A stretch of 64,000 bases of DNA. Source: Hyphococcus sp. (lineage in GTDB: Bacteria; Pseudomonadota; Alphaproteobacteria; Caulobacterales; Parvularculaceae). Shown here piece by piece: positions 5,405 through 51,517 of this stretch (its first letter is position 1; every line of letters begins with the position of its first letter). A program made the translations under genes and the position numbers. Location: the NCBI GenBank assembly GCA_021776375.1, contig JAJFGA010000028.1, positions 1 to 64,000 of the forward strand, written 5' to 3'. Below the pieces are notes generated by a model. It did not search any database and had not been told where the DNA came from. It worked only from the letters and a program-made list of their open reading frames with translations.

Positions 5405-6640
5405 CTAGAATGCCAGTTCTTCGATACTCTTGCTTGAGAGCCACAACGCGGGGTTAACGGGCTCACCTTTTTTGCGGATCTGAAGATCCAAATCTGTGCC
5501 GCCTTCGGCCATGGTCGCCACCGGCTCTCCGGCGGTAATCTGCTGGTTTTCCTCAACCAGAATGTCGCCGACGCCCAATAACAATATATGAAAGCCGCCG
5601 CCAACGTCCAGAACCACCAGATTACCAATTGGCTGCCAATCCCGCGCCACTACCACACGGCCCTCAAATGGTGCGGTCACAATTGCCTGATCGCGCGCAG
5701 AAAGGCGGATTCCTTCAAAAACACCGCCTTCCGGGCGGGGTTTGCCGAAGGCGCCCGTTAACCTTCCGGCAACCGGCGGTCGCAACCGGCCAAGCGCGGC
5801 GGCGAAATTCTTGGTGGCGATAAAGGGCTCAGGGGCTATCGGCTTGATCGCCGGGGTGATTTCGAGGGGGCTGAGGGCGATTTTTTTCGGCGGCGGGGGT
5901 TTGAGCCGCGGGGTTACGAGATGCGCCAGCCGCTCCAGGCGGCGCAGCATCTCGCGCAGGCTGGTCGCCTCAACCGCCAGGCGAGCGGTCTGTTTCTGGG
6001 CCGCAGCGGCAAGCCCGGCGGCGACATCGCGTTCTTTTTCCTTTTGCTTCATTAAATCGCCCAAGACGTCGCGGCGGGCGGCAAGCTCGGTATTGGTTCC
6101 GGCATAAGCGGCTTGCTCGCGCGCCAGCGCCGCCGACAGTTCGGCCAAGCTTTCTACCGCAACCCGCAGGCGGGCGGCTCTGGCCTCCAGCGCCGGGGCG
6201 GCGTCAGATAAGAGCATCGCCGCGCGCGCTGATTTGTTGGCGTCCTCCGGCGAGACCAGCAGCGCCGGCGGGCGCGACAACTCAAGCGATTGCAGCGCGG
6301 CTAAAACTTCGCTGACATTTTTGCTCTCGGCGCGCAACGCTGTCGCTGCTTGCGCCTTTTCCTGTTCGAGTTCGGCGATCGAGCCTTCAAGGCCGGTAAT
6401 TTTACGCTCGGCCTGCTGAATTGAATTGGCGGTTTCAATCATCCGGTGGCGCAGCGCCGCGACTTCTTTTTCGCGCGCAGCGGCCTCGCGGCGCAGACGC
6501 TTTTCTTCTTCGGCGCGGTCTTTGAGGCGGCGCTCGACATCTTGCAGCTGGCTCGGGTCCGTCTGCGCACTTGCCTGCGCAGGCACGCCCAAGGCTGTCG
6601 CCGCAACAATAAGGGAAAGCAGGAGTGCGCGCGCGGTCAT
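5405..6640 (-). CDS. Murein hydrolase activator EnvC family (coiled coil plus M23 LytM domain)
   Basis: Signal peptide MTARALLLSLIVAATALGVPAQASA, long coiled coil, C-terminal FEGRVVVARDWQPIGNLVVLDVGGGFHILLLGVGDI. Confidence 0.88.
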   Translation of the reverse strand: MTARALLLSLIVAATALGVPAQASAQTDPSQLQDVERRLKDRAEEEKRLRREAAAREKEVAALRHRMIETANSIQQAERKITGLEGSIAELEQEKAQAATALRAESKNVSEVLAALQSLELSRPPALLVSPEDANKSARAAMLLSDAAPALEARAARLRVAVESLAELSAALAREQAAYAGTNTELAARRDVLGDLMKQKEKERDVAAGLAAAAQKQTARLAVEATSLREMLRRLERLAHLVTPRLKPPPPKKIALSPLEITPAIKPIAPEPFIATKNFAAALGRLRPPVAGRLTGAFGKPRPEGGVFEGIRLSARDQAIVTAPFEGRVVVARDWQPIGNLVVLDVGGGFHILLLGVGDILVEENQQITAGEPVATMAEGGTDLDLQIRKKGEPVNPALWLSSKSIEELAF

Positions 6641-7119
6641 GAGCGGTGATAAGGGTGGCCGGTAAGGATGGTCATTGCGCGGTATAATTGCTCCATCAGC
6701 ATCACCCTGACAAGCATATGCGGCCAGGTCGCAACGCCAAAGCACAAAGATAGCGCAGCGCGTTCTGTGACCGATTTGTCATGGCCGTCGGCGCCGCCGA
6801 TCAAAAACGCCGCGGCGCTGGCGCCGTCATCGCGCTGGCGGGCGAGCATGTCGGCGAGGGCCTGGCTGGAATAGTTGCGGCCGCGCTCGTCGAGACGGAT
6901 GAGAACCGATCCCGGCGGTGCGGCGCCATAAAGCATCGCCCCTTCGCGGGCGCATCTTTTTGCGCCTTTCAGCTTCGCCGGTGTTTCAAATTCTAAGATG
7001 TCAGGGCCAGAAAAACCGATATTGCGGGCAATCGCTCCCGCCCGGTCCTGGTAATCGCATGCAAGCGTTTTTTCCGGGCCGGCGCGCATTTTCCCAATGG
7101 CGGCGATGATCAGTCGCAT
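6637..7119 (-). CDS. rlmH: 23S rRNA pseudouridine(1915) N3-methyltransferase
   Basis: MRLIIAAIGKMRAGPEK... FLIGGADGHDKSVTERA...LSLCFGVATWPHMLVRVMLMEQLYRAMTILTGHPYHR. Confidence 0.95.
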   Translation of the reverse strand: MRLIIAAIGKMRAGPEKTLACDYQDRAGAIARNIGFSGPDILEFETPAKLKGAKRCAREGAMLYGAAPPGSVLIRLDERGRNYSSQALADMLARQRDDGASAAAFLIGGADGHDKSVTERAALSLCFGVATWPHMLVRVMLMEQLYRAMTILTGHPYHRS

Positions 7120-7130
7120 GACTACCTTTA

Positions 7131-7233
7131 CTAGAGCATTTTCCGACCAAGCGGGTACCGGTTGGGCGCCAGAAAATGCGGCCACTAAGAATCTAGAACA
7201 ATATCCGATCGTGCCGATCAGATATTGTTCTAG
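7131..7233. repeat. Two consecutive inverted repeats in the rlmH/rsfS spacer (REP-like intergenic element)
   Basis: gcattttc...gaaaatgc pair, then perfect 13-bp arms ctagaacaatatc (7193-7205) / gatattgttctag (7221-7233). Confidence 0.7.
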
Positions 7234-7246
7234 CGAAGGCTTTTAA

Positions 7247-7783
7247 TTAAGCCTCGGTCTTGACCGGCGCATGCGCCGCTTCCGACCACACGCGTTCAAT
7301 GTTGTAAAAGCTACGCACTTCCGGGCGGAACAGATGCACGATCACATCATGAGCGTCGATTAAGACCCAATCGCAGGCGCCCGAGCCCTCGACATGGGCG
7401 CCGGTAACGCCGGCGACCTTGAGGCGCGCGACGATTTTGTCGGCCATCGCGCCGACATGGCGCTGCGAACGGCCGGAGGCGACAACCATGAAATCGGCAA
7501 TGTCTGACTTGCCGGCAAGGTCGATGGTGACGACATCTTCGGCTTTGTCGTCATCTAGCTGCTCAACAATGAGGGAAAGAATTTTGCGACCAATCTCAGT
7601 CGGCGTCAGGCCGACAAAAGCGTCCGGAATTGTGACCCGGCTGTGGTCGTCATCGCTATCAGCGACAAGTCTTAATGCGGCCTTTCCGGCAGCCGCGGCG
7701 CCGTCAAGTGAACTCAGCGCAGTTCTCCATTTGCAACACGAGAAATCCTCGTTCGGTGAATATAGGAGCTTTTGGGGCGGCAT
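7247..7783 (-). CDS. rsfS: Ribosome silencing factor
   Basis: IVEQLDDDKAEDVVTIDLAGKSDIADFMVVASGRSQRHVGAMADKI...DWVLIDAHDVIVHLFRPEVRSFYNIERVW. Confidence 0.94.
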   Translation of the reverse strand: MPPQKLLYSPNEDFSCCKWRTALSSLDGAAAAGKAALRLVADSDDDHSRVTIPDAFVGLTPTEIGRKILSLIVEQLDDDKAEDVVTIDLAGKSDIADFMVVASGRSQRHVGAMADKIVARLKVAGVTGAHVEGSGACDWVLIDAHDVIVHLFRPEVRSFYNIERVWSEAAHAPVKTEA

Positions 7784-7802: not shown

Positions 7803-9410
7803 TTAACTGTTGCTTAAAAGGCACGCCGCGAACCAGCCCTTATCGTCGGTCCAGATGGCCTCCTTGCGCCACGGCGTTTTGGCGAAAAGCGCGTCCAGCC
7901 GCTCGGGCGAATATTTGTAAGAATTCTCCGTATGCAGGGTCTCGCCCGTCGCAAAGGTAAATTTCTGTTCATCAATTGTTATGGCTGTCGGGCGCAGCGC
8001 CCGTAGATGCATTTCAATGCGGCAGTTTTTTTCGCAGTAAAATGCGTAATGCTCGAAATCGCTGATAGTTAATATGGCGTCCAGTTCGCGCTGCATCCGC
8101 ACGAGAAGATTGAGGTTGAACGCGGCCGTGACGCCGTCGCGGTCATTATAGGCGGCCTGAAGGACGGCGGGGTCTTTTTCGAGATCAATCCCGAGCAGGA
8201 ATTTGGCGTCGGGCCCGAGCGTCTGGCTGGCGCGGTTTAAAAACTTAACGGCGGTATCGGGCTGCATATTGCCGAGGGTGGAGCCCGGGAAGAATCCCAG
8301 CCAATGCGCCGGTTGCGGCAAATGCCCGGCCGGGATGGTCACCGGCGCATGAAAATCGGCGCAGACAGCCGCCACGGGGAGTTTATGCCTGTCGGTAAGC
8401 GCGGTTGCGCTCTCGATCAGATAGTCTTTGGAAATATCCATCGCCACATAGGCGGCGGGCTGGTCAAGGCCGTCGAGCAGCCAGGCGATTTTTTCGCTGG
8501 CGCCTGAGCCATATTCAAAAATCGCTGCGCCAGAACCGATCTGGTCTGTGATGTCGGCGGCGTTAGCGTCAAACACCGCTTTTTCCGTGCGCGTCGGATA
8601 ATAGTCATCGAGCGTCGTAATCTGCTGAAACAGTTTCGAGCCACGCTCATCATAGAAATATTTTGGCGAGAGACTTTTTTGCGTCTGCGCTAATCCGGCA
8701 AGCGCATCAGCTTTAAAGTCGCCGAGATCGGGATGCAGGTCGAGAAAAAATGCCAGCGACCCATAAGGCGCGGTTATATCGGTCACGTTGTGAATGTCTC
8801 CAGAAGGTTTGTTGGGTGATGCAAGCGTGTTGTTTCTGATTGCGGTGGAGGAAATGGGATTGTCGGTGTCTGAAAAATAGACCCAGACCGGCGGATCGTT
8901 CCGGGTCAACTGGTTGAGGTTTTCCTCATTGATGCGGAAAGCGTCAAGCGCTTTTGCCGCCTCTCCTGACAGCGCGTTGTCAGTATAGCCGGGACGATTG
9001 AACACCGCCATTGGCGCCAGCTCGGCAATTTTTCGCCAGTGCTTCCAGCGATGAAATTCGGCCAGGCTGTCCGCGCCCATCAGCCAGATAAAATCGATAT
9101 CAGGATTGGTAACCTGCAACCGCTCAAGTGTATCAATCGTATACTGAAGATTGTGTCGACGTTCAAAATCGCTGACGACAATATCGGGATGGTCGGCGAC
9201 GGCGCGCGCCTTTGAAAGCCGTAGCTCATAGGGCGCATATTGGCCCGCATCCTTTAACGGATTGCCGGGCGTTACAAGCCACCACACCGCTTCCAGGCCA
9301 AGCTTTTCCAGCGCGGCCAAAGAAATTAGCCGGTGCCCGGTATGGGCGGGATTGAAGGAGCCGCCGAGAAGCCCGATCCGGCGGCGAGAGAGCTTGTCAG
9401 AGGACATCAC
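7803..9410 (-). CDS. nadD: Fusion protein: nicotinate-nucleotide adenylyltransferase (NadD) + EgtD-type L-histidine N-alpha-methyltransferase
   Basis: N-terminus IGLLGGSFNPAHTGHRLIS...WLMGADSLAEFHRW...ISSTAIRNN (NadD); C-terminus SPKYFYDERGSKLFQQITTLDDYYPTRTE...FEYGSGASEKIAWLLDGL...LGFFPGSTLGNM...YKYSPERLDALF (EgtD); one uninterrupted 535-aa ORF. Confidence 0.9.
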   Translation of the reverse strand: MMSSDKLSRRRIGLLGGSFNPAHTGHRLISLAALEKLGLEAVWWLVTPGNPLKDAGQYAPYELRLSKARAVADHPDIVVSDFERRHNLQYTIDTLERLQVTNPDIDFIWLMGADSLAEFHRWKHWRKIAELAPMAVFNRPGYTDNALSGEAAKALDAFRINEENLNQLTRNDPPVWVYFSDTDNPISSTAIRNNTLASPNKPSGDIHNVTDITAPYGSLAFFLDLHPDLGDFKADALAGLAQTQKSLSPKYFYDERGSKLFQQITTLDDYYPTRTEKAVFDANAADITDQIGSGAAIFEYGSGASEKIAWLLDGLDQPAAYVAMDISKDYLIESATALTDRHKLPVAAVCADFHAPVTIPAGHLPQPAHWLGFFPGSTLGNMQPDTAVKFLNRASQTLGPDAKFLLGIDLEKDPAVLQAAYNDRDGVTAAFNLNLLVRMQRELDAILTISDFEHYAFYCEKNCRIEMHLRALRPTAITIDEQKFTFATGETLHTENSYKYSPERLDALFAKTPWRKEAIWTDDKGWFAACLLSNS

Positions 9411-9510: not shown

Positions 9511-10620
<1,110 letters not shown>

Positions 10621-15145: not shown

Positions 15146-15949
15146 ATGAAAATCACCACCTGGAACATTAATTCCGTCCGCCTACGTATTGATCTTGTGA
15201 CACAGTTTTTAAAACAACAGGCGCCGGATGTGTTGTGTCTGCAGGAAATCAAATGCGTTGAAGACGCCTTCCCGTCCAAGGCGTTTCGCGATGCCGGTTA
15301 TGAACATATCGCCGTTTCCGGTCAGAAGGGATATCATGGCGTCGCGATTGCCTCGCGCCTGCCGCTCAAGAAAATTGAAAAGCGTGAGTTTTGCGGCAAG
15401 GAAGACGCCCGCCATATTGCCGCCAGCCTGCCGGGCGGCGTGCGCATCCATAATTTCTATGTCCCGGCCGGCGGTGATGTCCCTGACCCGAAGAAGAACG
15501 ACAAATTCGCCCATAAGCTCGATTTTATGGATGAAATGCGGGGCTGGTTTTCAGAATTGGGCCCGCGTTCAAAGTCTATTCTGGTCGGTGATTTGAATGT
15601 TGCGCCAACCGAAAACGATGTCTGGTCGCACAAGCAATTGTTGAAAATCGTCTCGCACACGCCGGTCGAGGTCGAGCTGTTGAACGCTGTCATCGCCTCA
15701 CATGGCTGGCTTGATGTCGCGCGCGCACTCGTTCCTGAGCCGGAAAAACTCTACACTTGGTGGTCCTACCGGGCGAAAGATTGGCGCCAATCCAATCGCG
15801 GTCGTCGCCTTGACCATATCTGGGTGAGCCCGACGCTCAAAAAACCAGCGCTCGATGGCGGACGTAAAGCCTATCAAATCCATGATGACGCACGCGGATG
15901 GGAGCGGCCTTCCGATCATGCGCCCGTGTCACTGACGCTAGATATATAG
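15146..15949 (+). CDS. xth: Exodeoxyribonuclease III
   Basis: MKITTWNINSVRLRIDLVTQFLKQQAPDVLCLQEIKC...DLNVAPTENDVW...RLDHIWVSPTL...SDHAPVSLTL. Confidence 0.95.
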   Translation: MKITTWNINSVRLRIDLVTQFLKQQAPDVLCLQEIKCVEDAFPSKAFRDAGYEHIAVSGQKGYHGVAIASRLPLKKIEKREFCGKEDARHIAASLPGGVRIHNFYVPAGGDVPDPKKNDKFAHKLDFMDEMRGWFSELGPRSKSILVGDLNVAPTENDVWSHKQLLKIVSHTPVEVELLNAVIASHGWLDVARALVPEPEKLYTWWSYRAKDWRQSNRGRRLDHIWVSPTLKKPALDGGRKAYQIHDDARGWERPSDHAPVSLTLDI

Positions 15950-17053
15950 ATGCGGCGCAAGCGCCGTCATTAGTGCGTCAATATCGCTTTCATCATTATA
16001 AAGATGAACTGAAAGCCGAACCACGCCCTGCCTTGTGTCGTGAATGACGCCGGCATCCGCCAGGTCCGCCGCAGCCGCATCATAATCACGCACGTTGATC
16101 AGAACGCCAGAGCCGCGTGCGCCCTCGGTCATCATCGATTGCACTGCGCTGTCCGGCAGGCCGTCAAACAGCCGCGACAATAGCGCCTGATTATGCGCGT
16201 AGATTGCATCAACGCCGTGTGCGCCGATAATCTCAAAGCCAGCCAGCGCGCCAGCGGCAGGCGCGATCGAGGGCGTGCCGCCAGTATAGCGGGCTGCGCC
16301 TTTGGCATATTCAAAATGGCGGATATCCAATTCGAACGGGTCTTCATGGGAAAACCATCCGACATCCATCGGCGCGCATTGTGCAGCGGTGTCGTCTCGC
16401 ACCCATAAGAATGCAGCGCCTGGCCCGCCGCAGAGATATTTTAGCGACGTACCGACGGCAAAATCAGGAGCCCATTCATTCAGTCGCACCGGCACGGCGC
16501 CGGCCGCCTGGGCGACGTCGAGGAGCGAGAAAACGCCCGCCTCGCGGGCGCGGCGGGCGATTTCCCCAGCCGGCGCCATGACGCTGGAGTTGGAATAGAC
16601 CCGTGTGGCCGCCACCAGCTGAACATCGTCTTCGAATGCCGGCGCCCATGCATCCGGGTCGGCAAGGCGCATCCCGCCGGGCAGGAACACCAGCTCATAG
16701 CCAATCCGCTGCGCCTGGGCGAGGGCGAAGCCGACGGTCGGAAAATCATCTTCACTGAGAACAATTTTCGTTCGTCCCGTTCGTTCGGGAAGCGAGAACA
16801 GGATTTTAGAAATCCCACTCGTGACATTACTCTGTAGGCAGATGTCGTGCGCTTCGGCGCCAATCAGTGGCGCGAGGCCAGCGCGCGCAAGCGCCAGGGT
16901 TTCAAACCAGGCATCCCAGACGCCGGCGCCCTCGCGCCGCCATGGGCTTGCAAAGCTCCGCGCCATCGCCGCATCCATGGTTTTTGGCTGCGCGCCGACA
17001 GAATGCGACAGGAAATAATGCTTGCCCGGCAAGTGAAATTTATCGCGGTCCAT
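15938..17053 (-). CDS. Aminotransferase class V-fold / kynureninase-like PLP enzyme
   Basis: KHYFLSHSVGAQPKTMDAAM...CLQSNVTSGISKILFSLP...LLDVAQAAGAVPVRLNEWAPDFAVGTSLKYLCGGPGAAFLWV. Confidence 0.85.
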   Translation of the reverse strand: MDRDKFHLPGKHYFLSHSVGAQPKTMDAAMARSFASPWRREGAGVWDAWFETLALARAGLAPLIGAEAHDICLQSNVTSGISKILFSLPERTGRTKIVLSEDDFPTVGFALAQAQRIGYELVFLPGGMRLADPDAWAPAFEDDVQLVAATRVYSNSSVMAPAGEIARRAREAGVFSLLDVAQAAGAVPVRLNEWAPDFAVGTSLKYLCGGPGAAFLWVRDDTAAQCAPMDVGWFSHEDPFELDIRHFEYAKGAARYTGGTPSIAPAAGALAGFEIIGAHGVDAIYAHNQALLSRLFDGLPDSAVQSMMTEGARGSGVLINVRDYDAAAADLADAGVIHDTRQGVVRLSVHLYNDESDIDALMTALAPHLYI

Positions 17054-46575: not shown

Positions 46576-47337
46576 CTACCATTTATTGAGGAGCGCATGC
46601 TCTTCGTCAGCATCAAGCGGTTCATCTGAAATGAGGCCGTCAACAAACTCATCAAATTGGGCGTTGAACCCTGCGGATGCGGTTGAGTAGACGCCATCTT
46701 CTACATTTTGTGCGGGCACAAGAGCGACAAGTTGGACTTCCCATGTCGTTGTTTTGCGGCAGGCCACAGCACGGTTAGTCAATTCGTTCTGCGTCACCAT
46801 GAACTCACGACAGTAATCGCCATTGACTGACATAAATGTCAGCGACGGCGTTATCGCGGCATCGTTTGTTGCGTTGATAATATATGTATCAAGGCTCGCG
46901 ACTTTCTCGAGCGCATGATGAAGAGGGCTGGTTTTATCAAGGGCGCCGGCAGCCAGAACATTGTTACGCTGTACGGCTGTGCCGGTTGGTGTAATTTGCA
47001 TGCCCAAACCAAGCCCAACAACAAGCATCATGGATGCAGCAATTGGCATCGCCCATTGCTGTGCTGCTCTTGGCAGGCGATGAAATGGAAAGGGCACGAC
47101 ATTTTGTGGGCGCTCAGCAGTATCAGTTGATTCAAGCATATCAAGCACGGCCTGTGGCATAGGCGTCTTGTCAATGTCGCTATAGGCGGCGACAATCAAA
47201 TGATTGGAGCTTTTTAGTTGCTCAACCCTTCTCGCAAGCCTGTCATCTTGTTGTAGCGCCTGGCTAATCATGTCCAATTCACTATCAGCCAGTTCGCCAT
47301 CGATATAGGCAGAGAGTTTTTCGTCCGTAATCGTCAT
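46576..47337 (-). CDS. Anti-sigma factor, single-TM with C-terminal extracytoplasmic domain
   Basis: MTITDEKLSAYIDGELADSELDMISQALQQDDRLARRVEQLK; TM WAMPIAASMMLVVGLGLGM; directly after the sigma gene. Confidence 0.85.
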   Translation of the reverse strand: MTITDEKLSAYIDGELADSELDMISQALQQDDRLARRVEQLKSSNHLIVAAYSDIDKTPMPQAVLDMLESTDTAERPQNVVPFPFHRLPRAAQQWAMPIAASMMLVVGLGLGMQITPTGTAVQRNNVLAAGALDKTSPLHHALEKVASLDTYIINATNDAAITPSLTFMSVNGDYCREFMVTQNELTNRAVACRKTTTWEVQLVALVPAQNVEDGVYSTASAGFNAQFDEFVDGLISDEPLDADEEHALLNKW

Positions 47338-47339
47338 GA

Positions 47340-47870
47340 TTAGGCTCCAATAATCGCATTTGTTTCAATACCGGCGCCCTTCGCGCCAAGTGTTTTGATC
47401 AGCGCTTTGCGCGCCCTGGCAATGCGGCTCATGATTGTGCCGATTGGCGCGTCCAACGCTTGCGCTGCTTCAGCATAGGAAAAGCCTTCAAGAGCAACGA
47501 GTGATAAAGCCGCGCGTTGCTCATCGGGCAACGCACCCATCGCTTTATTCACTTCGTTGAAGGCTATTTTATCCATCATCATTCGTTCTCCATCGACCTT
47601 TTCTTCGCCGCCAATCTTGCCACTTTCGACCGCTGCACCCCGTACTTTTCGTGACCGTATCTCGTCGATCCAGATATTTTTGCACACACGAAACGCCCAT
47701 TTTCCCAAATTCACGTCATCGGGCGCGCCCTTCTTCAATACGCGTTCAACCGTCGCCTGTAGTAAGTCATCGGCGTCAGCGCGAGCGCCCGTAAGCGCAT
47801 ACGCATATCGGCGTAACCGCGGTAATAGCTCGACAATGCCTTGACGCAGCGCGTCCGTTTTCATCGACAT
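47340..47870 (-). CDS. ECF-type RNA polymerase sigma factor
   Basis: LRRYAYALTGARADADDLLQATVERVLKK...WAFRVCKNIWIDEIRSRKVRG...LPDEQRAALSLVALEGFSYAEAAQALDAPIGTIMSRIARARKAL. Confidence 0.94.
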   Translation of the reverse strand: MSMKTDALRQGIVELLPRLRRYAYALTGARADADDLLQATVERVLKKGAPDDVNLGKWAFRVCKNIWIDEIRSRKVRGAAVESGKIGGEEKVDGERMMMDKIAFNEVNKAMGALPDEQRAALSLVALEGFSYAEAAQALDAPIGTIMSRIARARKALIKTLGAKGAGIETNAIIGA

Positions 47871-47991: not shown

Positions 47992-50331
47992 ATGTTCAGC
48001 TTGTATAAAAGGCGCCCCACACGCAAACGATCGGTTCCATCGCGTATGCCCCGACCATTTTTATATATATTATGCTTCCTGGCGGCGGCGTTTCCAGTCA
48101 TTGGCCTGCCAATCGTCGGTTCGCCAGGCGCCGCGATGGCCAAGTCAGGGTCTGGCAGCGAGGGCACGCCAGAAGACGATATTGAGGGCGACATTGAAGA
48201 TGATGTTGAAGAGAGTATCGAAGAGGAACTGGAAGACAGTGTCGAAACGGATATTGAGGATAGTGTTGAAGATGACGTCGAGGACAGCGTCGAAGACGAT
48301 ATAGAAGATAGTGTTGAAGATAACATTGAAGACAGTGTCGAAGACGATGTTGAGGATAGCGTCGAAGACAGCGTTGAAGACAGCGTTGAAGACGATGTTG
48401 AGGATAGTGTCGAAGATGACGTTGAAGACAGCGTTGAAGACGATGTTGAAGATAGTGTCGAAGATGACGTCGAGGACAACGTTGAAGATGATGTTGAGGA
48501 TAGTGTTGAAGACGGTGTCGAAGATCGAGTGGATAGCGAAGTCAGCGATAACATTGACACGAAGATCGAAGACAATAGCGGTTCGGGGAACGCGAGTGAT
48601 CGTGATCTTGAAGATGAGATTGATGATAAGATCAGTTCGGAAGTCAGCGACCAAAGAGATGCCAGCGAAAGTTTAGGCGATATTTTTGATGAGGCTAAAG
48701 CTCTCGCGGAAGCGGAGCGTGACACTACGCGGATTGCAGCAGACGCAGAACGAGATGCGGCGCGGGCCGCAGCCAAATTTGCCCGTGATGACGCATTGGC
48801 TGCGCCAAATGCTGATGTGGAGGCAATTGAAGCGGAATATGATTTGGCGAAAGAGGCCGCAGAGGAGGGTCGCGATGCTGCGCATGAATCGGCCGATGAA
48901 ACCTTAGCGACCACATTATTATCAATTAGCGCCGAAGAGGAAATGCTTGAGGGCGACAATGAGGAATCGTCCGGTTCAGGATCTTCAAATTCAGACAGTA
49001 GCGACGATGACGATGAAGACCTGGAAGACGATTCCGGATCTGGATCATCTAATTCGGGCTCTGGTAATGACGATGACGACGACGATGATGATGAAGAAAA
49101 TTCCGGCTCCGACAATGGTGATGACGAGGGTGACGAAGACGAAGATGAGGGTGAAGATGAGGACAATTCGGAATCCAGATCTTCAAATTCGGGGTCCGGC
49201 AATAGCGGATCTTCTCAATCCCTAAACGACAGAATATTTTCTGTCGCCCTTGACGAAAGCGGCAATGAGATAGAACGCGGCGAATGGCTAATGCTGACGC
49301 CGTCAGATGCTTTAGAAGAGTTGAGAGCACAAGGGTTTTCTACAACAGAAATAGAAAAGTTGGATGGGCTTAATCTTGTACTCGCGCGCATAGAAGCTTC
49401 TGATCGTCACAGCCTTAAAGAAGCAGAGGCGATTGTTCAGGACACAGCATTAGGCGCTGAGGTCGACTATAATCATATCTATTACAAACATCACTATACG
49501 CCGGGATCGAAACAAATCCGAAAAGGGCGTCATGGCGCAACGCCGACGGATTTATTTAAAATGCCGGAAGCTGACGGCGGTAAGGGGCGGTCAATTGGGA
49601 TTATCGATACTAATGTTGATGTAACCCACGGAACGCTCAAAAATGCTCACATTCAGGTCGGAGATTTTGTGCCCTATACGCATGCGCGACCCGAAACCCA
49701 TGGGACCACTATCGTATCTATCCTGGCCGGAGACAGTGACGCATATCAAGGCCTGTTGCCAAAGGCTGATATTTACGCTGCATCCGTGTTTTTCAATTCT
49801 CCAACAGGGGAAGAAGCGGCGACTACCATGAGTTTGGTTCGCGCACTTGATTGGATGACAAAAAACAATGTGCCTGTTGTTAATATGAGCCTTACGGGCC
49901 CGGAAAATGCGATTTTAAAAAGCGCAATCGATCATGCCTATGAAAAAGGAACAATTGTTGTCGCCGCTGTTGGCAATGCCGGCCCAACGGCGCCGCCGCT
50001 ATATCCGGCCGCCTACAGCAATGTCATCGCCGTCACCGCGATCACAAAGAAAATGAAGATATACCGTCTCGCCAACCGTGGTGAGCATGTGGATTTTGCA
50101 GCCCCTGGCGTAAACGTTCAGCATGCATTGGACCATGGTGAGTTTGCCGCATCCTCAGGCACATCCATCGCCGCGCCCTTTGTCAGCGCGCTATTGTCTC
50201 TTTACACTGATGAGAACGGGCATATCAGCGATATGCGACTTAATGACCTTACGGCGAATGCAGTTGACCTTGGCCGCAAAGGATTTGATCCCATTTATGG
50301 GAATGGCTTGATTAGACCGCTTGGCGATTAA
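47992..50331 (+). CDS. S8 subtilisin-like serine protease with acidic tetrapeptide-repeat and Asp/Ser/Gly-rich N-terminal half
   Basis: Catalytic regions IGIIDTNVDVTH (Asp), RPETHGTTIVSIL (His), SSGTSIAAPFVSALLSLY (Ser); N-terminal hydrophobic segment; (D/S)(V/I)ED repeats. Confidence 0.93.
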   Translation: MFSLYKRRPTRKRSVPSRMPRPFLYILCFLAAAFPVIGLPIVGSPGAAMAKSGSGSEGTPEDDIEGDIEDDVEESIEEELEDSVETDIEDSVEDDVEDSVEDDIEDSVEDNIEDSVEDDVEDSVEDSVEDSVEDDVEDSVEDDVEDSVEDDVEDSVEDDVEDNVEDDVEDSVEDGVEDRVDSEVSDNIDTKIEDNSGSGNASDRDLEDEIDDKISSEVSDQRDASESLGDIFDEAKALAEAERDTTRIAADAERDAARAAAKFARDDALAAPNADVEAIEAEYDLAKEAAEEGRDAAHESADETLATTLLSISAEEEMLEGDNEESSGSGSSNSDSSDDDDEDLEDDSGSGSSNSGSGNDDDDDDDDEENSGSDNGDDEGDEDEDEGEDEDNSESRSSNSGSGNSGSSQSLNDRIFSVALDESGNEIERGEWLMLTPSDALEELRAQGFSTTEIEKLDGLNLVLARIEASDRHSLKEAEAIVQDTALGAEVDYNHIYYKHHYTPGSKQIRKGRHGATPTDLFKMPEADGGKGRSIGIIDTNVDVTHGTLKNAHIQVGDFVPYTHARPETHGTTIVSILAGDSDAYQGLLPKADIYAASVFFNSPTGEEAATTMSLVRALDWMTKNNVPVVNMSLTGPENAILKSAIDHAYEKGTIVVAAVGNAGPTAPPLYPAAYSNVIAVTAITKKMKIYRLANRGEHVDFAAPGVNVQHALDHGEFAASSGTSIAAPFVSALLSLYTDENGHISDMRLNDLTANAVDLGRKGFDPIYGNGLIRPLGD
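48172..48530 (+). repeat. In-frame degenerate 12-bp tandem repeats encoding [DSN][VI]ED
   Basis: gaagacagcgtt / gaagatgacgtt / gaggatagtgtc units encoding DSVEDDVEDSVEDDVED... Confidence 0.95.
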
Positions 50332-50487
50332 ATCGCCAGTGTTTGTCATGGTTTGACGGCATCCATTAACGACCCAAATATTTTTCTGGAAATCCGAAGA
50401 CGGATTGCAGCCGCGTTCTCCGGCTACTGCAATTTACGTTTTGTTTACTACACGCAAAAAAAACTCATCAAATAAAAAGCTTCTTTG

Positions 50488-50514
50488 GGGAATATATCGC
50501 GTCCTTGAGCCGTC
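50488..50514 (+). promoter_or_regulatory. Candidate ECF promoter for the helical-rod gene: GGGAAT-N17-CGTC
   Basis: GGGAATATATCGCGTCCTTGAGCCGTC, 34 bp before ATG 50549; same spacing as the two divergent motifs at 47.9 kb. Confidence 0.7.
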
Positions 50515-50548
50515 ACTATCAAGAACCGCCCACCACAGGAGAATTTGT

Positions 50549-51517
50549 ATGGGTACCGCGAAAATATATGCTTCTGCTTTCGCCATTGCGGCTGTCCTAG
50601 GCTGGTCTGGCCTGGCAAATGCCGCCCCGGCCAATACGGCATCGGGCGCGACCGGCCTCCAGCTAGCTATGTTGCTTCAATCGAGCGCAGACCCAAGCGA
50701 CGATGACATCGACGCCGATGGCCTCAAGCGTCGTGGCGACGGAACTATTGATGATGATCAGCCGGGCCAAGATGATGTAGACGATGACATTGGTCCCGAT
50801 GGCCTTAAGCGCCGCGGTGACGGCACTATTGATGACGACCAACCAGGTTCAGATGACGACACAGCAGATGCAGATGACGATGATGATCGTCGCGGCCGAG
50901 GCAGAGGTCGTCGCGGCGATTCGTTAGATGACGACGATGGAGAGCGCCGCGGCCGTGGACGCGGAAGAGGCCGGGGCCGCGGTCACGACGGCGATGATGC
51001 TGCCCGCGATGAAGCTCGCGAAGCAGAACGCGCCGCAAAGGATGCTGAAAAAGCTGCACGACGTGAGGCCAAGCAGGCTGAAAAAGAAGCCCGCAAAGAA
51101 GCGCGAGAAGCTGAAAAAGAGGCAAAGGAAGCCGCTGAAGAAGCTGAAGAAGCCGCCAAAGAGGCCGCTGAAGAAGCTGAAGAAGCTGCCGAGGAAGCCG
51201 CTGAAGAAGCTGAAGAGGCTGCCAAGGAAGCCGCCGAAGAAGCTGAAGAAGCGGCCAAGGAAGCCGCCGAAGAAGCTGAAGAAGCCGCCAAAGAGGCCGC
51301 TGATGAAGCCAAAGAAGCGGCCAAGGAAGCTGCGGATGAAGCTGAAGAAGCCGCCAAGGAAGCCGCTGATGAAGCCAAAGAAGCAGCTAAAGAAGCTGCT
51401 GACGAAGCTGAAGAAGAAGCAAGAGAGGCCGCCGAGGAAGAAGCAAAAGAAGAAGCTGAGGATGATGCTGAAGATGAGGTTGAAGACGAGGCTGAAGACA
51501 ATAGCGGCAAAGGGTAA
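50549..51517 (+). CDS. Exported repeat protein: duplicated Asp-rich module, RG tract, long Ala/Glu/Lys helix
   Basis: Signal peptide MGTAKIYASAFAIAAVLGWSGLANA; 2x DGLKRRGDGTIDDDQPG; RRGRGRGRGRGRG; (KEAAEEAEEAA)n; ends EDNSGKG. Confidence 0.8.
   Translation: MGTAKIYASAFAIAAVLGWSGLANAAPANTASGATGLQLAMLLQSSADPSDDDIDADGLKRRGDGTIDDDQPGQDDVDDDIGPDGLKRRGDGTIDDDQPGSDDDTADADDDDDRRGRGRGRRGDSLDDDDGERRGRGRGRGRGRGHDGDDAARDEAREAERAAKDAEKAARREAKQAEKEARKEAREAEKEAKEAAEEAEEAAKEAAEEAEEAAEEAAEEAEEAAKEAAEEAEEAAKEAAEEAEEAAKEAADEAKEAAKEAADEAEEAAKEAADEAKEAAKEAADEAEEEAREAAEEEAKEEAEDDAEDEVEDEAEDNSGKG

Follow-up and report, generated by a model that had tools for sequence, protein, structure and literature searches.

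A fused nadD-egtD gene in Marinicaulis predicted to encode a bifunctional enzyme linked to ergothioneine synthesis

In a number of Marinicaulis species (Parvularculaceae) the genes for NadD and EgtD are joined into one open reading frame. We analysed this gene in a stretch of 64,000 nucleotides, here called the window, where it lies on the minus strand at positions 7803..9410. It very probably encodes a bifunctional NadD-EgtD enzyme that arose by stepwise gene fusion and would feed ergothioneine synthesis; its most likely effect is a coupling of expression. A literature search on NadD with EgtD or ergothioneine found no description of such a fusion, in line with the preliminary description of this DNA, whose author knew of no characterised case. 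The domain architecture occurs in a culturable species.

One open reading frame encodes NadD and EgtD

The open reading frame starts with a GTG at 9410 or an ATG at 9407, runs for 535 codons without an internal stop and ends with the stop codon at 7803-7805. As the preliminary description had proposed, it combines two enzyme families, and both domains scored above the curated cut-offs. The amino-terminal NadD domain (residues 14-193; 8832..9371, minus strand) was recognised by Pfam as CTP_transf_like. With the NCBIfam models it reached 245.6 bits for NF000843 (cut-off 240) and 123.0 bits for TIGR00482 (cut-off 112.45). It contains the nucleotidyltransferase motifs GGSFNPAHTGH and ISSTAIR, and its fold matched NadD structures in the PDB with TM-scores up to 0.74. 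Like the free NadD of the relatives, the domain ends soon after ISSTAIR, but here the chain continues into EgtD.

The carboxy-terminal domain (residues 232-533; 7812..8717, minus strand) corresponds to the histidine N-alpha-methyltransferase EgtD. It was matched by Methyltransf_33 of Pfam and by TIGR03438 of NCBIfam with 354.6 bits (cut-off 290.9), where positions 2-300 of the 301 model positions were aligned. The domain shares its full length, its fold (TM-score 0.90 to 4pio, by target length) and its substrate-site residues with the EgtD of M. smegmatis (PDB 4pim/4pio), which is a free enzyme and not the second half of a NadD fusion. The histidine site was inspected at Y39, F47, Y56, N166, Y206, T213, M252, E282 and S284 (mycobacterial EgtD numbering); the roles of Y39, F47, Y56, N166, Y206, E282 and S284 have been described (PMC8593015). 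All nine residues are identical in the fusion; two of them, M252 and E282, are the positions altered in the tryptophan-binding EgtD variant 4pip. The loss of histidine- or SAM-binding residues, which would have spoken against the assignment, was thus not seen at the histidine-site positions checked.

The two domains are separated by a linker (residues 195-213; 8772..8828, minus strand). In an AlphaFold2 model both domains were predicted with confidence, whereas the linker appeared disordered (pLDDT < 50). Since the pTM was 0.60 overall and the linker is disordered, the relative placement of the two domains is undefined in the model. In nine fused genomes exactly one NadD match above the TIGR00482 cut-off was found in each, and likewise one copy of EgtD. 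As the only NadD in these genomes, the fused domain should provide the essential NadD activity of the cell, converting NaMN and ATP to NaAD, and the EgtD domain would trimethylate histidine with SAM to hercynine.

The fused gene is located between obgE (9511..10554) and rsfS (7247..7783), where the preliminary description had placed it. Downstream of rsfS lies rlmH (6637..7185); all three genes are on the minus strand, and the true starts of rsfS and rlmH are probably further in. The synteny is conserved, with the gene order oye/gst, obgE, nadD-egtD, rsfS, rlmH, envC, ctpA, polysaccharide deacetylase and nudH.

Fused and separate genes among the relatives

We searched 60 related genomes and read the junction between the two genes at the codon level. 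The fused reading frame was present in 15 of the 28 Marinicaulis genomes and in one sister genus. Among the fused assemblies are the isolate M. flavus SY-3-19 (L066) and a genome in a single contig (G004). The fusion of the sister genus (G035) extends across two contigs (L187 and L035) that share an identical overlap of 141 bases. In the other 13 Marinicaulis genomes the genes are split and abut or overlap. A single stop parts two genes that share a reading frame in four of them; in the remaining nine the frames differ and the open frames overlap. When 385 genomes of the whole class were searched, the only match in one piece at E <= 1e-80 was that of the window itself; this sample is thin, and fusions may exist elsewhere.

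The genome of the window is a fragmented, 84%-complete MAG, so that two genes could in principle have been joined by an assembly or sequencing artefact. The probability of this is negligible. The same fused frame occurs in 15 independent assemblies of the genus, including the isolate and the one-contig genome, which rules out an artefact and with it the hidden frameshift considered in the preliminary description; in addition, the junction is under codon-level selection in the M. flavus clade. The artefact was therefore rejected on the comparative data, and the fusion is real and not due to chance or sequencing error.

Another family of the same order, that of G043, has about 45 nadD-egtD pairs, and none of them is fused. 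Single long matches in this family were rejected as fusions because the two genes in them are separated by an in-frame stop, so that the matches reflect adjacency. About 20 of the pairs (L137, L034, L157-L174) share a frame and are parted by one stop, or by two in one case, and about 25 are in different frames; the excess of same-frame pairs is partly a selection effect of the strict E-value.

Two kinds of fusion differ in the internal start and the linker

The preliminary description had pointed to an in-frame GTG preceded by GGAG close to the junction. Both elements were found, with the GTG at 8784..8786 (residue 209) and the candidate Shine-Dalgarno sequence GGAGA at 8797..8801, both on the minus strand, and an internal start of a free EgtD is plausible. 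All six genomes of the window clade (L006-L011) have retained GGAG and, where EgtD once began, a GTG or ATG; most split genomes also have one of these codons at this position. A candidate start with a Shine-Dalgarno sequence is no longer present in the M. flavus clade, except for a weak one in L023.

The linker evolved differently in the two clades. In the window clade it was near-neutral (residues 195-208), with a pN/pS of 0.69 compared to 0.14 and 0.18 for the domains (all pairs of the five closest members). In the M. flavus clade the linker was as constrained as the NadD and EgtD domains (Nd 4/81.5, Sd 14/20.5, p = 1.5e-9; two independent pairs from four comparable species). Thus, the reading frame is conserved in 15 genomes of the genus, whereas constraint on the linker is clear in the M. 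flavus clade and weak in the window clade.

Since the internal Shine-Dalgarno sequence and start are kept and the linker is near-neutral, the window clade probably makes both the fusion and a free EgtD, and with such a linker the fused form may not matter there. With the start mostly absent from the M. flavus clade, the fusion is probably the sole product there. The loss of the start together with the strong purifying selection on the linker indicates, at the codon level, that the single polypeptide is maintained by selection in this clade.

Four related split genomes (L013, L018, L020 and L032) have no ATG, GTG or TTG for egtD near the usual start. They keep the GGAGA with an ATC 7 nucleotides later; about 13 codons downstream all four have an ATG, which lacks a clear Shine-Dalgarno sequence. 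Translation of their egtD would begin at ATC, a rare start codon, or at a start that has moved.

The fusion appears to have arisen repeatedly

To place the fused state on a phylogeny, nine flanking genes were used for a tree, which was calculated by a quick method with some rows sparsely filled. The fused state required five changes, four of which were forced by starred branches. The five fused lineages are G035, L024, L014, the M. flavus clade with seven species and the window clade with six species. A tree of nadD-egtD itself gave six changes. Gains and losses cannot be told apart by such counts on their own; we read the changes as gains, given that the genes are separate in the outgroup genera and in another family of the order.

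The surroundings of the genes point to the order of events. In other Alphaproteobacteria the order obgE-nadD-egtB-egtD-rsfS-rlmH was found in L080, and also in L078, where obgE was beyond reach. Ten loci (L138-L141, L143-L146, L150 and L151) show egtB-egtD-rsfS-rlmH; the flank retrieved for them does not contain nadD. Three others (L148, L153 and L154) have nadD-egtD without egtB, and the family of G043 likewise has nadD-egtD-rsfS without egtB. The other genera of the Parvularculaceae carry an egtB-egtD pair or egtD alone in divergent orientation upstream of nadD, and in the EgtD tree their proteins fall on another branch. We infer as the simplest path that in ancestral Alphaproteobacteria an egtB-egtD pair was inserted downstream of nadD and ahead of rsfS, that egtB was then lost from this spot, leaving nadD and egtD as neighbours, and that finally the stop or the frame of nadD was lost and the genes were joined in five Parvularculaceae lineages.

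EgtB is encoded beside nadK

The preliminary description had noted that no egtB lies in the window. This holds for the window, but in the genus egtB is unlinked to the fusion and present elsewhere. Matches to EgtB (TIGR03440) were found in all 27 other Marinicaulis genomes, 25 above the cut-off and two, from fragmented assemblies, just below it. In every locus of the genus examined with enough flank, egtB is divergent beside the NAD kinase gene nadK, and throughout the genus it adjoins nadK and a class II aldolase gene (e.g. L192:5889-8929 and L193:5884-8947). The placement beside nadK was also observed in members of two sister genera, g3 and g9, and one genome from another family has egtB within about 1.3 kb of nadK. 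Since nadK and the aldolase gene adjoin each other in relatives that have no egtB at this site, it appears that egtB was inserted there.

The 84%-complete assembly of the window contains neither egtB nor nadK. The gene nadK is taken to be essential. Its absence together with that of egtB, its neighbour in the sister species, makes an assembly gap the likely reason for the missing egtB, rather than a loss, and a loss of the ergothioneine pathway in this organism was rejected as unproven. A weak match to EgtB on contig C90 (48 bits) turned out to be an FGE-sulfatase-like protein beside dnaK. The class-V aminotransferase of the window (15938-17053, minus strand) is kynureninase-like and below every curated NCBIfam cut-off; it was rejected as EgtE with 56.7 bits (cut-off 400).

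The preliminary description had suggested hercynine or another methylated product. Hercynine is the predicted product of the EgtD domain, but hercynine alone is an unlikely end product. As egtB exists in the genus, its product would carry hercynine onward, and the pathway most likely leads to ergothioneine; for the organism of the window this rests on the sister species.

Possible roles of the fusion

A coupling of NAD+ synthesis to hercynine, as originally suggested for the fusion, was not borne out. Sister species encode the two proteins in neighbouring, unfused genes, the linker is predicted to be flexible with no defined arrangement of the domains, there is no known shared metabolite, and the linker in the window clade is near-neutral. 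The main effect of the fusion is most likely a coupling of expression, by which EgtD would be made at a fixed ratio to an essential housekeeping enzyme, and not catalytic channelling.

The fusion might be selectively neutral, with the stop lost and regained by drift, the joined protein equal to the pair in function and a free EgtD possibly doing most of the work. We give this nearly an even chance. It would account for recurrent gains inside one genus, where the two genes already adjoin or overlap and 13 close relatives do well with separate genes, and it fits the window clade with its retained internal start and its flexible, near-neutral linker. It does not fit the M. flavus clade, which is mostly without the internal start and has a linker constrained like the domains. 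Moreover, the roughly 45 pairs of the other family, many of them in the same frame, were never fused, so the fusion is not simply inevitable.

A functional coupling within redox defence, in which NAD(P) supply and ergothioneine synthesis would be co-localised or co-regulated by sharing a polypeptide, appears rather unlikely. The five separate fusions, the constrained linker of the M. flavus clade and the independent position of egtB beside nadK in the same genera are consistent with it. However, no shared metabolite is known, no domain interface was predicted, species with split genes exist, and egtB may have come to lie between nadK and the aldolase gene by chance. It is improbable, in our view, that the fusion was repeatedly selected to tie ergothioneine synthesis to NAD(P) supply, with EgtD joined to NadD and EgtB placed beside NAD kinase; if so, both entry steps of an antioxidant pathway would be wired to pyridine-nucleotide synthesis. 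The arrangement suggests a connection of NAD(P) with ergothioneine synthesis that can be tested.

The fusion can be set beside other joined enzymes. ALDH-ADH fusions act on consecutive steps, whereas NadD and EgtD have no known shared intermediate. Convergent ALDH-ADH gene fusions (PMC12454647) are a similarly repeated joining of the same two enzyme families. The fungal Egt1, a natural fusion of methyltransferase and sulfoxide synthase that likewise carries EgtD activity (PMC11993508), joins two steps of one pathway, whereas EgtD is here joined to the enzyme of another pathway. The adjacent egtB-egtD genes of Alphaproteobacteria such as Methylobacterium (PMC4621440) encode the same two-enzyme start of ergothioneine synthesis, which in Marinicaulis is divided between two loci, with egtB beside nadK and egtD fused to nadD. 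Most stages are found in this one genus, from overlapping genes and in-frame neighbours separated by a stop to fusions with the internal start retained and fusions in which it is mostly gone and the linker is under selection. Marinicaulis is therefore a good natural system to study when a gene fusion becomes functionally fixed.

Other genes of the window

Two repeat-rich proteins are encoded elsewhere on the plus strand of the window. The open reading frame at 50405-51517 encodes a protein of 370 residues that is rich in Glu/Ala/Lys/Asp repeats and has no Pfam match. The gene at 47992-50331 encodes a protein of 779 residues, in which long acidic D/E/S/V repeats are followed by a subtilase domain (Peptidase_S8, residues 530-772). 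It adjoins the genes of an ECF-type sigma factor and a putative anti-sigma factor (47340-47870 and 46576-47337), and a long antisense open reading frame runs through its repeats.
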